Assembly (NCBI RefSeq): GCF_016097555.1
Contig: NC_054712.1
Location: forward strand, 57,353,181-57,417,180
From: Gigantopelta aegis
Taxonomy: Eukaryota; Mollusca; Gastropoda; Neomphalida; Peltospiridae
Direction of reading: 5' to 3'
Length of the DNA stretch: 64,000 bases
Shown here: in pieces, positions 9,230-60,700 of the stretch
Layout of the letters: each line of letters starts with the position of its first letter
Position numbering within the stretch: the stretch's first letter is position 1
Translations under genes and position numbers: made by a program
The notes under the pieces: generated by a model
What the model was told of the DNA's origin: nothing
Seen by the model: the letters and a program-made list of their open reading frames with translations, nothing else
Database searches by the model: none

Positions 9230-9560
9230 CCTATTGGTCCCAACCGGATAATACTGTACATTTCGTCTCTGTCCTGTCCCACATACAGATTTCTGGACTT
9301 TTTCCCACAATGCTTTTGTGTATAGGTTTGACTTTCATGGGGATTTGCCCATTTTTGACAGAGTTATGGCCCTTGAACTTAACAGTAAGAGATATGTATT
9401 GCTTCAGCAGTTTTTGGCCCGCCATTTCCAAAACTTTGTTTATTTTTTTTGTTGTAAATAGTTTGATACCCTTTATTTTTGACAGTCCGTCTAAATTGCT
9501 GAAATCATCTTCAAACTTTAGATGAGCACTCAAATTTTTTGTTTGGCTTTTCAGTTTGAC
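9230..9560. repeat. Probable dispersed repeat
   Basis: Contains the phrase GAGTTATGGCCCTTGAACTT, which I associate from memory with dispersed repeats in molluscan genomes. Open frames on both strands across it have no recognisable domain. The call is weak without a repeat library. Confidence 0.35.
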
Positions 9561-9579
9561 CAGACATGGTTATTCTCGC

Positions 9580-9728
9580 CTTTATTAAAATTTTCAAATT
9601 TCCTCTCACCTCAAACTTTACCCCTCCCACTCCTGTCCTGGAATTAGTCACTGGCAATGTCAGAGATTAAGTCCGGGATGGGCATGCCTGAACTGTAAGT
9701 GGATGTGGGCACATTAATACAGTTCCCA
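9580..9728 (+). repeat. Diverged relative of the flank of the 37-41 kb ORF units
   Basis: From CACCTCAAACTTTACCCC through GAATTAGTCACTGGC and GGGCATGCCTGAAC to GGGCACATTAATACAGTT the order and wording follow the segments at about 39045-39170 and 40545-40668. It is a solitary, older copy of that module without any ORF. Confidence 0.75.
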
Positions 9729-10349
9729 GGCCAGCTTCAGCAGTACTCTCAGAATGCTTGTTTGAACGAGTAAACACAAGTAGGCTACCCTGACCAAAAC
9801 GATACAGCTGCCATATGATGGGAAAGTTACAACATAAACAGCATCACAATGACACAAACATTGGCAACTTATTTTATAATACAGTCAAAACTGACTTTAG
9901 CAACTACTAGCATTTGAAAGAGTATAGTAATGTGGCTGACTTATACAAGTAATGCTGTTCTTAATTGGGGATGGAAATAACATCAAACAAGCCACCCACT
10001 CACACACCCTGTAAAAAATAAATATAAAAAAATCCAGTAAATTCTTGAAAAGTAACAATTTACTATTTAGTCTTTCATCAAAGAACAAGGTAGGAAGTTT
10101 TTTTTTGATGGGACTAAGACAGAAATTAAAAAAAAAAAAAAAAAATGTTTTCACCAAAGTTGTACAAGTATTAGGTGATTTCAGTTAATAAGGTGGCTGT
10201 TTATACAGGTTTGACCGTAGGCCTACATGTATATCCACTACATAACATAACAAAAAAAAAACATGGCCGACAGAACAAAAGCTCCCAGTTTCATGGTAAA
10301 CATTCTAACCATCTTCCTTCTTTAAAGAAGCATGACCTAACGACGATCA

Positions 10350-37014: not shown

Positions 37015-37284
37015 GGGGGCGGAACGTACCCTAGAGTGGTAACGCTCTTGCTTGATGGGCGGTCCGTTTGGGATCGATCCCTGTCAGTGGGCCCATTGGG
37101 CTATTTTTCGATTGATATATCAAAGGCTATAGTATGTTCTATCATGTCATTGGGATGATGCATATAAAAGATACCTTGCTACTAATGGAAAAATGTAGCG
37201 GGTTTCCTCTCTAAGACCATAATTTGTAAAAATTACCAAATGTTTGACATCCAATAGCCGATGATTAATAAATCAATGTGCTCG
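37015..37284 (+). mobile_element. SINE interrupted by the 3.55-kb element
   Basis: tRNA head (TAACGCTCTTGCTTGATGGG) and body up to AAATCAATGTGCTCG at 37284. The SINE tail (GCTCGAGTGGTGCCATTAAA) continues at 40838-40862. The two halves prove that 37287-40837 is an insertion. Confidence 0.9.
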
Positions 37285-37286
37285 TG

Positions 37287-37383
37287 CAATCTAATTAAAA
37301 TTAGCTCCACTATTACACCAGCCAGTTGGAGCTCATGTCCACCAATCAAAACCTTACTTGCAGAATCCTGCCAATGATTTAAA
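37287..37383 (+). repeat. Left terminal inverted repeat of the 3.55-kb element
   Basis: 97 bp matching the reverse complement of 40728-40837, with a 13-bp gap after ATTAC. Confidence 0.92.
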
Positions 37384-37474
37384 CATAATTTGAAAACATT
37401 CCGAATTATCCTGAGGGTATACGACATGTTTCGTGTGAATTACGAATGCCTTAAAACATGTTTTATTTTATAAA

Positions 37475-37575
37475 ATAAATAATTTGTAATGTAAAACTGA
37501 AGACTGATTTAGTTTTTTTTTTATATATATATATAAATATATAAATAATTTTTAATGTAAAATTGAAGACTGATA
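37475..37575. repeat. Short imperfect duplication
   Basis: ATAAATAATTTGTAATGTAA with following TGAAGACTGAT is repeated about 65 bp later with T/A-rich sequence between. Confidence 0.75.
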
Positions 37576-37799
37576 ACCCACCCCGTACGTATTGGTATGG
37601 TTCGCTAAAATAGACTCGCCCGATATTTTTTGAATTTGTATGCTCCCAAATAACGTTATAAAAGGCGAAGTGTGATTGGTCAAATTATTATTCCGATTCT
37701 GCATTCCAATTTTGTTTACGATGAAGCTAGACGTGAGTCCCTGCTCTCTGGAGTTACCCCCCCCCCCCCCACCTGGGGGGACTCATAACAACATACGGA

Positions 37800-38672
37800 A
37801 TGTTGTTGGAGTACCGCGTCGCGTACACCGGGTCACGGGCAACCGTGACTTTGGTGTACGGCGACCCGGTCCCAACCAAGACTAGGAGGACGAGGAAGAA
37901 GAGGAGAAACCCGCCAGGAACGGTTCGGGGGGGGGGGGGGGCAACCCCGGTGGCTAAACCACCGGCAGCGGCTCCTTCTGCTTCGCCGTTTCCTGTAGTC
38001 TCCACCGGAAAGAAGGAAGGGAAGCCAGTTCCGACCGGCCCAGCTCCCGCTCCGGAGGCGGTCCGAGACGAGGCTAGTATCACTAGGACTCCGACTCGTT
38101 CCAGCACTTCGCCTCGTCATACTATGGATAGTATTGACGTGTCACCAATTCTACCGGTGTCACTAATGGCTATCCCGGACCGCCAAGGAGCTGTTGGGAA
38201 GCGCAAGGCAGAGGTGGCGACCACTGTTCCCACTACAAGAACCCCACCAAAACAACCTCCGCCACCACCAGAAGGGGCAGAGTCAGGTGAATCCATGGCC
38301 TCCTGGACTCTGCACGGGAAACTGGATCGCCGCTTTTCCAAGTGCGCTGTTGTTGATGTCCTGGACACCAAGCACCTCTTGGCAGTGCCCCGTTGCCGCA
38401 CCTTTGAGGACATCCCGAACGCAGACGGTGAATACGAGATGCACCCGGTGACCTTTAAGGATGGGAGGTCGGCTGTGAGTATTACCCATCATCTGGACAA
38501 CCGCTACAGCCAGGCTCTACTGTTTGCTGAGATGGACAACATATCGATTCATCGCCTGATGAAGAAGGTGTTCCACAAACAGTATCCTGTGATCACTAGA
38601 CTGCTAGCGAAGCCGGATATACACCAGCTGATCCCCCATCTGGACACCAGGGTTTGGCTCTCCTCCCCCTAG
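37800..38672 (+). CDS. Unknown proline-rich/basic protein, unit 1 (290 aa)
   Basis: I do not recognise this family. Residues 2-20 (LLEYRVAYTGSRATVTLVYG) match residues 26-44 of the second ORF. A basic stretch (TKTRRTRKKRRN) and a long Pro/Ala/Ser-rich, probably disordered, middle follow. A C-terminal domain of about 120 residues (from GKLDRRFS to the end) shares with unit 2 the words FKDGR/MKDGR, EMDN, IHR and PxIT and an identical SSP end, at roughly 35% identity. The DNA is GC-rich with coding-like composition. The segment matching the first 24 residues of unit 2 is not in this frame, so the listed start is the first internal Met and the copy may be incomplete at its start. There is no signal peptide or membrane span. 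Nuclear or nucleic-acid binding is only a guess from the basic stretch. Confidence 0.7.
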   Translation: MLLEYRVAYTGSRATVTLVYGDPVPTKTRRTRKKRRNPPGTVRGGGGATPVAKPPAAAPSASPFPVVSTGKKEGKPVPTGPAPAPEAVRDEASITRTPTRSSTSPRHTMDSIDVSPILPVSLMAIPDRQGAVGKRKAEVATTVPTTRTPPKQPPPPPEGAESGESMASWTLHGKLDRRFSKCAVVDVLDTKHLLAVPRCRTFEDIPNADGEYEMHPVTFKDGRSAVSITHHLDNRYSQALLFAEMDNISIHRLMKKVFHKQYPVITRLLAKPDIHQLIPHLDTRVWLSSP

Positions 38673-38679
38673 TCAATCT

Positions 38680-39180
38680 TTCCTCCGTGAGTACTAACCT
38701 CTTTTATTGGGCTAGTTAGACTTTAGTTCTAGTTAGTTCTAAATTCTTATGTTTATTTTTTTATAAGTAGTCTAACGCATTTTATTTTGGCGCCCGTTCA
38801 ATTGCTCAAAATCACCTTAAAAACTTTTCGGCCGAGCAGTCTTAACTATTTTTGGCTAAAAATTTAGAGTCCAGACATGTTTTGGTATGCAGTACTCTTT
38901 GTAGACTTAGGTGAAAAACAGGCTTCACCGAGGAATCGAAATTCAGCCAATCAGAACACGGCTCCCACTCGGTGTTACTTCAAGTTTATGAAGTGTCTGC
39001 TATTTGGTCCGCGCTTACTAAATGGCTTTTTTCCAAATTCCGTCCACCTCAAACTTACCCCCCCCCCCCCCCCTGCTCCGGAGTTAGTCACTGGCGAAGT
39101 CAGAGGCTAAATCCGTAGTGGGCGTGCCTGAACCTCTGTGGATAGGGGCACGTAAATACAGTTGCCCGTTGCCCGTTATT
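38680..39180 (+). repeat. Conserved non-coding flank, copy A
   Basis: Nearly identical to 40173-40679. It starts with a splice-donor-like CCGTGAGTA right after the stop codon. It contains AGCCAATCAGAACACGGCTC (CCAAT box-like) and a C run of about 16, and ends with GGCGTGCC ... GGCACG able to form a 6-bp hairpin before TAAATACAGTTGCCCGTTGC. It lies between the two ORFs, so it could be 3' region of unit 1, promoter of unit 2, or both. Confidence 0.9.
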
Positions 39181-39195
39181 CCGATTTGAGCTAAG

Positions 39196-40149
39196 ATGAA
39201 GCAGGACGTGTGCGCTTGCTCTCTCGAGCTACCCCCCCACCTGGGGGGATTCATTGCTTCTTACGGAGTGTTATTGGAGTACCGCGTCACGTACACCGGG
39301 CCACGGGCAACCGTGACCTTGGTGTACGGTGAACCAGCGAGGAAGCCACCTAGGAGGAGAAGGAGGAGGAAGACGGACGCGCCAGGGGCGGACCGGGGGA
39401 GGTCAAAACCGGTAGCTCAACTACCGGCGGCGACTTCTTCCGTTGTACGCCCCAAGCCCCAGTCTACACCAGCGAGACCAGCTGTTACAGCCCTGCTGGA
39501 TCCAGATGTTGACTTGCCAGTGGCGAAGCCGGACACGGACCTTAACCGGGCCCTGATGGAATCGCCCCCCATATCTCCGAAGCCTTCAGCCTCCGGGTTT
39601 CCAGCGATGCCACCCCCACCCAGGAAGAGTGGCGCTGTAGAAACCCAGGCCCGTCTTGTGGCCGTTGGAAAACGAAAGGCGGTTGTGTCTCCAGGCGACC
39701 AACCAGACAAGCCAAGTCCGCCGACTCAACCGCCTACACCAACTTCACCGCCGATAGATGATTCGACCATCGGCCAGCCTTGGACATTACAGTCTGGCAA
39801 GCTACCATCGCGCTACTCAAGGCTGGTCAAGACCAACATCGGGGATGTCCGTCGGCTCCTTTGTGAACCTGGTCCGAATACCTACGAACCTCTGCCGCTA
39901 ACGGAAGGAGAGTTTTCGGTGCGGAGGATTACTATGAAAGATGGGAGAGGGATCTGCCTTACTGTCCGCCGGAGGGGACTTTTCCACCAAGGGATGCTTC
40001 TCGATGAAATGGACAACCCGACCATCCACCGCGTCATCAAGACCGTTGCCGGGGAAGACTACCGTCCAATCACCGAGAACATCGCCAAGTCCACATACCG
40101 GCAAGCCCTCCACCATCTGGATTCGTCCCTCTTCATCAGCTCTCCTTGA
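39196..40149 (+). CDS. Unknown proline-rich/basic protein, unit 2 (317 aa)
   Basis: I do not recognise this family. Order: N-terminus MKQDVCACSLELPPHLGGF; conserved LLEYRVTYTGPRATVTLVYG (about 26-45); basic RRRRRRK (about 51-57); Pro-rich region to about 195; C-terminal domain of about 120 residues from SGKLPSRYS with MKDGRG, LDEMDN, TIHR and a final SSP. The start at 39196 is the first ATG after the conserved flank and the matching ATG exists in unit 1. Codon use and GC content differ sharply from the neighbouring host genes. Position inside a TIR element suggests cargo or an element protein. It could also be a captured host gene family. No catalytic motif is visible. Confidence 0.75.
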   Translation: MKQDVCACSLELPPHLGGFIASYGVLLEYRVTYTGPRATVTLVYGEPARKPPRRRRRRKTDAPGADRGRSKPVAQLPAATSSVVRPKPQSTPARPAVTALLDPDVDLPVAKPDTDLNRALMESPPISPKPSASGFPAMPPPPRKSGAVETQARLVAVGKRKAVVSPGDQPDKPSPPTQPPTPTSPPIDDSTIGQPWTLQSGKLPSRYSRLVKTNIGDVRRLLCEPGPNTYEPLPLTEGEFSVRRITMKDGRGICLTVRRRGLFHQGMLLDEMDNPTIHRVIKTVAGEDYRPITENIAKSTYRQALHHLDSSLFISSP

Positions 40150-40172
40150 CGACATCCCCTCTACCAACCTCC

Positions 40173-40679
40173 TTTGCCTCCGTGAGTAACCTCTTTTATT
40201 GGGCTAGTTAGACTTTAAATGTTTTGTAAGCAGTTCAAAAATTTTATGTTTATTTTTTTATAAGTAGTCTAACGCATTTTATTTTGGCGCCCGTTCAATT
40301 GCTCAAAATCACCTTAAAAACTTTTCGGCCGAGCAGTCTTAACTATTTTGGGTTAAAAATTTAGAGTCCAGACATGTTTTGGTATGCAGTTACTCTTTGT
40401 AGACTTAGGTAAAAAACAGGCTTCACCGAGGAATCGAAATTCAGCCAATCAGAACACGGCTCCCACTCGGTGTTACTTCAAGTTTACGAAGTGTCTGCTA
40501 TTTGGTCCGCGCTTACTAAATGGCTTTTTTTCCAAATTCCGCCCACCTCAAACTTACCCCCCCCCCCCCCCTGCTCCGGAGTTAGTCACTGGCGAAGTCA
40601 GAGGCTAAATCCGTAGTGGGCGTGCCCGAACCTCTGTGGATAGGGGCACGTAAATACAGTTGCCCGTTGCCCGTTATTT
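40173..40679 (+). repeat. Conserved non-coding flank, copy B
   Basis: Second copy of the flank described at 38680, differing by a few substitutions and small indels, mostly near its first 60 bases. Confidence 0.9.
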
Positions 40680-40727
40680 ACAGACGAAATGTTACCTGGA
40701 CATTGGGGACTACGCAGTGTTGTTAGT

Positions 40728-40837
40728 TTTAAATCACTGGCAGGATTCTGCAAGTAAGGTTTTGATTGGTGGACATGAGCTCCAACTGGCTGGTGTTAGA
40801 TCCACATGTAATAGTGGAGCTAATTTTAATTAGATTG
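40728..40837 (-). repeat. Right terminal inverted repeat of the 3.55-kb element
   Basis: 110 bp; reverse complement of the left arm. It ends at the point where the interrupted SINE resumes. Confidence 0.92.
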
Positions 40838-57708: not shown

Positions 57709-60700
57709 CATTCATTCATTCATTCATTCATTCATTCATTCATTCATTCATTCATTCATTCATTCATTCATTCATTCATTCATTCATTCATTCACTCACT
57801 CGCACACACACTAACCTTCCACCCACTCACTCACTCGCACACACACCAACCTTCCACCCACTCACTCACTCGCACACACACCAACCTTCCACCCACTCTC
57901 ACTCATTTAAATATTAATTTATTTTTCTTTCATTCTTTCCTTTCCTTTTTTGTCTTAAAACATTCATTCATTTGTTCATCCAATCTATCTTTCTTATCTT
58001 TGTTTGTTCCAGGGGGTCAGTCAGTAATTTTAATACCATGACTGAAAGCTTTTATCGCAAACATTTGACAACTTTCTGGGCCACTACTGTATATAGGATA
58101 TAACTGTGTGCTCTTCATGTTTGCAATGGGCTGTAGAATTGATATCCCACAGTTAGCTCACTGGGTTATTTAGAGCTCCATGATTACATGTAATATACCA
58201 AAGGATATGGTATATGCCAATATCACCAAAACCCCAACAAAAACAATCTCGTATATTGTTATCTGCTAATTAGTACGGTGAAACCAGTCTAAGCCAGATC
58301 ATGCCTGGGACCTAATATTTATCCCATTTACACAGGATCCGTTGTTTAGAAGGTAGCGTTTTAGAATTTAGAAAATTCAGGACTATGAAACCCGGGCAGT
58401 TTTGATGGGATTCCGGTTACTACAGGGTTTGGTTTAGACCGGTTTGAAAATTAAAAAAAAAAAAAAAAATCCCTTAATAGAAAGTAGTCGTTTTGTGTAT
58501 AAAAGGTTATATTCAAAATAATGTTTGACAAATTTTGTTTTACAAGTTTTATCTTATGCTTCATTTTTAAAACCATTTATCCTTTAAATACATATATCTA
58601 TATATGCCTTCAGAAGTAATGTTTTCTGTTGGGCCATTTATTATTTTGTGACGTCTAAAAACATCCGATTCTGTGACTGTTAATGTCTAGCTGCTTGAAT
58701 GACACAACCCCTTGCCATTGTAAAACCTCAGAAAAAAAAGGTGCAACAAACAATTATTAACTCCACAGCAATCTCCATGGCATTGCCGATTGCCATGGGT
58801 AGTTGCAGGGTTTGATGACATCCTGAAGTTTTAAGACCTTTTATAATGCCATGGCTTGTGACTGTCCTACTGCTGGGAATCGGTTGGAATTTCATCACTG
58901 ACCATCGGTTATAATCGCTTTACACCAACTGATCAACTTCTGATTACACCATCGGTTAATTTTATGAACATAGAAGGATTTAAATTATAAGGACCATGTA
59001 CTTAGACCGAAATTTTTTTTTTACTTGTTTCCTATTACATGCTGAATAAATATAGGGTAGGTAGGTAGGAAAAACATTTTATTTTGGAAAATAATTTTAT
59101 TTATGGATATTAAATAAAGGTGTTGACTACCGGTATCCAAAATAACCTCTGCATGTATAGAAATGCATTATGCAAACCAACAATACCATTCATCACAGTG
59201 TTTTCCCTAGAAATGAAGTAAGGCATGGTAAAGTGACCTTTATAAAAGGCAAGGCATTTTGATTTCGAGGGCAACATGGTGCTAACCTATCTGTGGGAGA
59301 GTACATACAAAAGACCCCTTGCTGTTTAATAATAGGCAGAAGGTTTACTCTCATACTAACACTTAACTTCTGTACTGGTCCAGGACAGACTTGGTTGAAC
59401 CTTAATTGGATAGAAACCAGTAAATAAGTTATAACAATTTCTTTTAATGAAACTGAAAAGAAGGGTTCTATATTTATCTGTCCAACAATAACATTTAAAA
59501 AAAATGTTATGAATATTATCTTTCCTAGTGTATCTAAGAAATGGTAGACTTACCAATTTTATAATTTGCAATGTTAGTTTTATTCTGTATGCATCCAGTA
59601 TTAAAGTACACACTTGGTTTGAAGCAATCAATTGGTCCAATGAATAGAAATGCAGTACAAATGCTCAGGATGCTCAAACGAATGTTGAAAAGTAAAGTTT
59701 GTTTTATTTAAGGACGCCACTACAGCACATTGATTTTTATCTTTAATATCATCGGCTATTGGACGTCAAACACATGGTCATTCTGACACTGTTTTTAGAG
59801 GAAACCCGCGAAGTTCCAAGTGACCACTTACAAAAAATAACGAAACGCATCGAGATCTTACTGACATATTTAATAATTTGATTTGGCAGTAAACTCCATC
59901 AGTATCGGTAAACATTCCCTCCCCTAGTTTATCAGAAGGTCACTAAATTTCTACACGGCCACTTTGTCACTGGAGTAAATCATTAAATATAGTTATTATT
60001 ATTAGTATTATTATTCGGAACACCTCGCTACGCTAGATGTAGAGTAAATCGGAAAAGATCGCATATATTCATGAAAACAATTTTCTGACTCTTCGCCCGA
60101 TATCTCACGAAAGTTCAATTTGAAGGGAAGTAACTCCATCAATCAATTGTTAGAAGAAAACATTTTGTGGTTAACACGTCGCCAATAAAACTAAATTTGC
60201 GACAGTGAAACCACCGATCCCAAACAAAAATTGCAAGCTTAATAAATAGCTGGTAACTAGCAGGTAACTACCTTGCGACAAGGTTGTACAAGCATATTTT
60301 ACACGGTAGTAACTACCGCGTTTCGAGCTAGTATATGGAACCTTTTTACAACCTTGCGACAAGCTTCCTGCAAGCTTGTGACGAGCTTCCCGCAAGCTTG
60401 CGATGAGCTTCCCGCATGCTTGCGACGAGCTTCCCGCAAGCTTGTTCAGTTTAAGCTAGTATTTGGAACCTTTTTACAACCTTGCGACAAGCTACCTGCA
60501 CGCTTGGTACGAGCTTCCTGCAAGCTTGCGACTAGCTTCCCGTACACTTGCGACTAGCTTCCCACAAGCTTGCGACGAGCTTCCTGCAAGCTTGCAACAA
60601 GCTTCCCGTACACTTGCAATGAGCTTCCCGCAAGCTTGTTCAGTTTAAGCTAGTATTTGGAACCTTTTTACAACCTTGCTGTAAGCTTGCTACGAGCTTC

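Follow-up and report, generated by a model that had tools for sequence, protein, structure and literature searches.

Mammalian HAL1 ('half-L1') elements carry the open reading frame (ORF) ORF1 without a reverse transcriptase (RT) and are moved in trans, and HeT-A itself is not known to carry an RT either. Short interspersed elements (SINEs) that are partners of stringent-type long interspersed elements (LINEs) share the LINE 3' ends and end in short repeats. LINE proteins are described as recognising 3' stem-loops strictly in the accessible part of a study of zebrafish L2-clade LINEs (PMC4176376). Molluscs carry many LINE families according to the extracts available of two surveys (PMC11203168, PMC10294476), and in the bivalve survey (PMC10294476) three of eight bivalve SINE families are said to have a known LINE donor. 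The present analysis concerns a stretch of 64,000 nucleotides (the window) on contig 14 of the gastropod Gigantopelta aegis, of which 1.149 Gb was searched, and in it two adjacent units, A and B. With a probability of roughly 85%, A and B are insertions of a large family of non-autonomous retroposons of the non-long-terminal-repeat (non-LTR) kind, which encode an ORF1/Gag-like protein only and use the RT of a LINE in trans.

Each unit consists of a short 5' leader, one ORF of ~290-320 amino acids, a 3' untranslated region (UTR) of ~500 nt and a (GTTGCCC)n tail (Table 1). As an earlier, sequence-only reading of the locus had described, A and B repeat at ~1.49 kb, each with one GC-rich ORF (290 and 317 amino acids, 58-59% GC; their UTRs have 43%) followed by a near-identical flank of ~500 bp (94.9% over 509 columns). 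Searched against the genome, the flank of A has at least 41 matches (best 40 of 3,415 first-look candidates scored). In 30 fetched loci the flank closes with (GTTGCCC)n or a near variant, and beyond it comes locus-specific DNA or, in a few, a next unit. The young tail, searched for as an exact 28-nt pattern, has 172 occurrences (92 + 80), and a backwards control has 0.

Most units are also bounded by target-site duplications (TSDs). Of 28 loci (L002-L030 minus L015, which is the B of the window itself), 22 have a word of at least 10 nt common to both sides, in each case immediately behind the tail (360 nt around the start against 83 nt at the tail). When the left and right sides were taken from different loci, 52 of 756 pairs shared such a word. 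A scan of 82 tails from all fetched sets, which includes overlapping loci so that some copies are counted twice, gave a match of at least 9 nt in 51. Sixteen of these are 14-16 nt long, many being tail repeats; the other 35 measure 9-13 nt, 15 of them exactly 11 nt. In 28 of the 51 rows the unit starts with CA[GT]T within 3 nt of the TSD match, a start that we take to resemble the initiator of jockey/I-type LINE promoters. Two marks of a retroposon made by target-primed reverse transcription (TPRT), TSDs and a constant 3' end with short repeats, are present. A Pol III head of SINE type is not, the units beginning with leader and ORF. Most fetched copies are full length; L019 starts at the UTR and is 5'-truncated, with no TSD detected, and L085 may be a further 5'-truncated copy or a different element. 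In L007 (1985-3377) an A unit stands directly upstream of another ORF, presumably that of a FLYWCH/MULE transposase. ARAGORN and Rfam found no RNA genes in the window, and the flank as a known ribozyme or structured RNA was discarded, Rfam giving none and then chance-level matches.

The ORFs are far more diverse than the flanks. The A and B types are 35% identical over 324 columns (L001 versus L002) and 36% in the C-terminal domain, close to the one third estimated earlier, and five ORF types (A-E), 24-47% identical between types, all carry the common UTR. Protein B has at least 126 genome matches at 63-100% identity (best 125 of 6,757 candidates scored); among those listed, stops lie inside the matched stretch in 20 of the 126, and 106 have none. 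For protein D there are at least 128 (best 127 of 5,806 scored), with a large group at ~60-66% identity. In alignment A1 (20 rows) the motif LEYRVxYTGxRATVTLVYG marks the N-terminus and EMDNPTIHRVxK the C-terminal domain; between them come a basic run and a variable, Pro-rich middle. In L047 and L051 an A-like N-terminus is joined to a B-like body. The conservation of the first codons seen in the sequence-only reading thus holds for the N-terminal stretch, but in A a run of 14 C leaves the leader ATG at 37721 in a different frame from the ORF body, while B, with 7 C, reads through. This C-run, followed by ACCTGGGGGG (37757-37776, 39232-39248), varies in length between copies and shifts the frame; it is either a slippage site or a mutation hotspot. 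Just past the stop codon, at 38685-38702, the UTR reads GTGAGTACTAACCTC, like a closely spaced splice donor and branch point.

Searches with A, B and the C-terminal alignment gave no match above chance, and none came from Pfam (also searched with 21 C-terminal domains), NCBIfam, PDB or BFVD. Inspection of the sequence had likewise recognised no family, and in the libraries searched no homology to a known Gag or ORF1 protein was found. Searches of phage records and viral contigs gave no match, one of them made with protein B only. In an AlphaFold2 model of B the mean confidence (pLDDT) is 60, with 72-93 (blocks of ten) in residues 201-310 and moderate values around 21-50. Foldseek with this model reached at best E 0.16 (PDB) and 0.07 (viral), with no significant fold match; dsRBD chains among the weak matches were not used as support. 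The predicted protein is ORF1/Gag-like in having a small N-terminal domain, a basic run, a Pro-rich disordered middle and a folded C-terminal domain. The median ratio of non-synonymous to synonymous divergence (dN/dS), averaged over the whole ORF in 20 copies picked for intactness, is 0.39-0.67 across the dS classes, and the ORF is thus kept by purifying selection. Strong diversifying selection, which had been offered as a reason for the unlike proteins, was rejected as the main cause on these values.

The last ~85 nt of the unit form two hairpins. RNAalifold applied to 16 UTRs gave 51 pairs, which include two hairpins, one imperfect of 21 bp and one of 7 bp, as well as an upstream stem. Over the 38 pairs tested, the share of cells that pair is 97.5%, against 95.5±0.3 in shuffles. 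There are 14 two-sided changes against 4.5±2.1 in shuffles, a number reached by 0 of 500 shuffles, ten of the 14 falling in the upstream stem; kinship among the sequences can lift covariation above shuffles without structure. The units thus have the conserved 3' stem-loop of a stringent-type LINE/SINE end.

A model of this module (R1) also detects it outside these units. Twenty such places were inspected (14-91 bits), the four lowest of which (14-28 bits) do not rise above the antisense of the units' own modules (20-29 bits) and are recognised by visible likeness. Together with A of the window, the 260 nt upstream of these modules sort into ten groups, one of which holds the UTR of the window; L026 and L040 probably join it only through a nearby tail of their own. 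Another group unites L062, which has a tRNA-like B box, with L044 and L058, and further differing bodies precede the module in L033, L063, L072 and L073; L024 and L043 have a body in common. In L072 (3140-3430) and L073 (1600-1860) a repeat with a similar two-hairpin end and a (CCTGA)n tail lies downstream of LINE ORFs, and may represent a further family of the same kind; a ~65-bp tandem repeat (~1150-1600) separates it from the LINE ORF in L073. L024 (334-418, unit-oriented) and L043 (1212-1296) have a very similar module on a different body without a recognised ORF, of which 1.2 kb is visible in L043 and a (GTTGCCC)n tail in L024. In the window, 59369-59424 is a weak copy of the module (29.8 bits). 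In an older layer, found with 9430-9735 as query (L056-L070), 10 of 15 loci have the same ORF family upstream in the frames displayed; the tails differ there, among them (CATTCC)n and (CCACAT)n.

The histories of UTR and ORF disagree. Twenty intact ORFs gave 190 pairs, and in the 51 A-B pairs dN is 0.53-0.65 and dS 1.21-1.72 at a UTR distance of 0.019-0.110. At dS 0.05-0.30 (115 pairs) the medians are 0.067-0.079 for the UTR distance and 0.40-0.48 for dN/dS; for the 19 closest pairs the median dN/dS is 0.67. A UTR tree was made for 50 copies, each typed by the C-terminal domain of its ORF (A 13, B 25, C 4, D 6, E 2), leaving out matches below ~420 nt, repeated identical UTRs, L015, L034 and L019 (no ORF call). 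The tree needs 10 changes of ORF type, where four is the least possible and shuffling gives a mean of 22.8. The median UTR distance is 0.058 within ORF types and 0.057 between them, and the closest cross-type pair, D/B, is 0.4% apart. The UTRs have therefore moved between ORF lineages several times, though not freely. More distant UTRs are found with the F type (one copy, L013; ~80%) and the D-like L084 (77-80%). A UTR block of 132 nt (38883-39014) occurs in the young copies, in L013 (F) and in L081 (D); eight older copies lack it, and L084 lacks most of it. The prediction from sequence that one flank would stand behind different ORF bodies at many loci was borne out by the genome search; very different ORFs carry the same tail, and therefore the non-coding parts are alike and the proteins are not.

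Units also follow each other head to tail. Among 60 distinct tails (deduplicated, and without L081, which the overlapping-locus list had), ten have the 5' end of a next unit on the same strand no more than 130 nt further on, one has a truncated unit there and none has any unit on the opposite strand; the tail in the head-to-tail case of L024 is that of the other body. Pairs of mixed ORF type occur (A-B, C-A, A-F, B-C), and simple duplication is therefore excluded for those. In the window the 11-bp TSD TTATTCCGATT covers the first bases of B, showing that A inserted into the 5' end of B. The TSD in L013 likewise covers the first bases of the resident F copy, if F starts at CATT like other units.

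These observations suggest the following mechanism. The ORF protein would package its own RNA, and the RT of a LINE would recognise the 3' hairpin module and the tail and copy the unit by TPRT. The RT is placed in trans because none of the fetched copies was seen to code for one; no autonomous LINE RT or endonuclease ORF was found in the ~1.5-kb units, which are filled by ORF and UTR. Either template switching or recombination would repeatedly have given old ORF lineages the module version in use, and this would explain why several of them have one module. New copies often insert into the start of a copy already in place, yielding arrays such as A-B. More tentatively, with chances we put a little under even, the units may belong to a genome-wide class of 'coding SINEs': several ancient single-protein lineages that never had an RT, vie for the machinery of one LINE by switching again and again to whichever 3' module it serves, and insert preferentially at the 5' ends, the transcription starts, of their own copies. 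Short 5' repeats of CA[GT]TCGATTCTTG (~13 nt) would then be fossils of self-insertions or stacked initiators.

Several points weigh against the reading as RT-borrowing retroposons. No RT partner with the module as its own 3' end was found in nine loci, a small sample drawn from the best 150 of 12,774 PF00078 first-look candidates, with the 3' side fetched; in L072 and, weakly, L073 the module lies further downstream of the RT, in another repeat. L085, a copy with the exact tail, has ~89 nt of the module and no RT. The word 'Gag-like' refers to architecture, because no significant structural match was obtained, and the choice of intact copies may affect the dN/dS values. The terminal hairpin alone (alignment A2, 20 rows) shows covariation not above shuffles, 175 of 500 being as high. 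Six of the 28 loci in the TSD test were misses (L005, L008, L012, L018, L019, L022), L008 because the filter drops two-letter words although an 11-nt repeat is present, and the TSD of B itself is weak (TTATT, 5 nt). The ORF types still cluster on the UTR tree, as its 10 changes against 22.8 show, and only nine of the 50 copies have their nearest UTR in another ORF type.

Among other explanations, the strongest is that the ORF is the ORF1 of a complete two-ORF LINE and the units are HAL1-like deletion derivatives of a rare full-length element, which would be compatible with movement in trans. The ORF1-like architecture, the purifying selection and the LINE-type 3' end with TSDs all suit it, and among the matches listed a rare long form could escape. 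However, the UTR lies downstream of the ORF in all 25 of the 25 loci fetched with ORF B, a base-by-base comparison of eight copies has it beginning no more than ~50 nt past the stop codon, and several very old ORF types are short, so that the RT would have had to be lost repeatedly or very early. We consider this explanation unlikely. Gene conversion between copies, keeping the flanks alike without exchange during retrotransposition, was one of the routes the sequence-only reading had left open. It is less likely still: it would account for UTRs that are alike across ORF types whose ORFs are near synonymous saturation, but it would have to act between loci dispersed over many chromosome-scale contigs, and the tract would need to stop near the stop codon every time.

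The locus itself (Table 1) had been taken for one inserted 3.55-kb element. The split SINE-like repeat and the ~110-bp arms were rightly seen, but the object is a nest of separate mobile elements: a SINE-like repeat (37015-37286), which we take to be a tRNA-type SINE, split by a terminal inverted repeat (TIR) element that itself holds the two ~1.5-kb retroposons. The order of insertion is SINE-like repeat, TIR element, unit B, unit A, and the inverted arms are unrelated to the retroposons. The left part of the split repeat terminates ...AATGTGCTCG, and the right remnant, from 40838, opens GCTCGAGTGGTG. Within the inverted stretches 37287-37388 and 40723-40837, paired segments I1 and I3 are 96% and 100% complementary, and the whole 87% over 110 columns including gaps. 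The arm is repeated DNA with at least 41 genome matches (best 40 of 251 first-look candidates scored).

A TIR element of autonomous or Pack type carrying the ORFs as cargo cassettes is very improbable. Two units do lie within inverted arms here, and one does so in L010. There, however, the same TIR element contains a single A unit, which sits elsewhere in the arm and has a TSD of its own, TGAGCTCCAAC; the position of the A-B pair is empty. The arms, expected around the flanks elsewhere if the cassette idea was correct, occur among L001-L070 in L010 and L046 only, besides the window duplicates L001, L015 and L031. At most loci single units have their own TSDs and unrelated surrounding DNA, which largely refutes this explanation. 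Cassettes within a TIR element were rejected; what survives of the proposed exchange of ORF bodies between fixed flanks is that the 3' UTR moved between old ORF lineages. A recent tandem duplication with proteins diverged by positive selection fits the head-to-tail order, but it can be dismissed, as the sequence-only reading had argued, by an A-B dS of 1.2-1.7 against a UTR distance of 2-11%, the dispersed copies of both types and the TSD of A.

Table 1. Coordinates of the retroposon units and the surrounding elements in the window.
Feature	Position	Strand	Basis or remark
Older diverged copy, same 3' UTR and RNA module	9430..9735	+	76% over 137 nt; 79.9 bits (R1)
SINE-like repeat, left part	37015..37286	+	flank matches at many places in the window
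Outer TIR element, left arm	37287..37400	.	arm complementarity; genome matches; L010
Outer TIR element, interior left of the retroposons	37401..37687	.	two arm/interior stretches match the L010 element, 84% and 94%
Left TSD of unit A, TTATTCCGATT	37688..37698	+	exact copy at 39176-39186
Retroposon unit A: leader, ORF A, 3' UTR, (GTTGCCC)n tail	37699..39175	+	TSD and comparison with other copies
ORF A, 290 aa	37800..38672	+	open reading frame
3' UTR of A	38673..39160	+	at least 39 other genome places match at 93-97%, including unit B
3'-terminal RNA module of A: 21-bp imperfect and 7-bp hairpin	39072..39156	+	
(GTTGCCC)n tail of A	39161..39175	+	
Right TSD of unit A	39176..39186	+	overlaps the 5' end of B
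Retroposon unit B, earlier insertion than A	~39178..40676	+	own TSD visible as the 5-nt TTATT repeat alone
ORF B, 317 aa	39196..40149	+	open reading frame
3'-terminal RNA module of B	40570..40654	+	103.9 bits, model R1
Outer TIR element, right arm	40723..40837	.	complementarity to the left arm

The available parts of the gastropod and bivalve transposon surveys (PMC11203168, PMC10294476) contain no ORF-coding retroposon of this kind, and in the literature on ORF1-only elements nothing alike appeared in titles and abstract openings, which is not proof of absence. Within one genome, the family offers a natural record of the ways in which non-autonomous elements may track an RT that changes, in that old protein lineages near synonymous saturation bear the same young 3' module. 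How such parasites keep pace with a LINE can be tested by comparing trees of module and ORF, and the one-way head-to-tail insertion and the conserved protein family, with its thousands of first-look candidates, likewise pose directly testable questions.

HAL1 and HeT-A appear to be the nearest known parallels. Like HAL1, the units have an ORF1 without an RT and would move in trans; in contrast to HAL1 they comprise many very old ORF lineages instead of one LINE's deletion derivative, their parent LINE was not found among the RT loci sampled, and their 3' module is common to the lineages and has been exchanged. With HeT-A, the telomere element of Drosophila, they share a Gag-only non-LTR make-up, head-to-tail arrays and an RT that would come from another element, as far as the accessible text of PMC5537684 describes it, but they are interspersed, have TSDs of ~11 bp and a UTR of ~500 nt, and end in hairpins and a 7-mer repeat instead of oligo-A. 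In the stringent LINE/SINE pairs, judging from the available part of PMC4176376, the LINE RNA is recognised at a 3' stem-loop, and the end of these units is alike; here, however, the module consists of 21-bp and 7-bp hairpins, and the non-autonomous element codes for a conserved protein.

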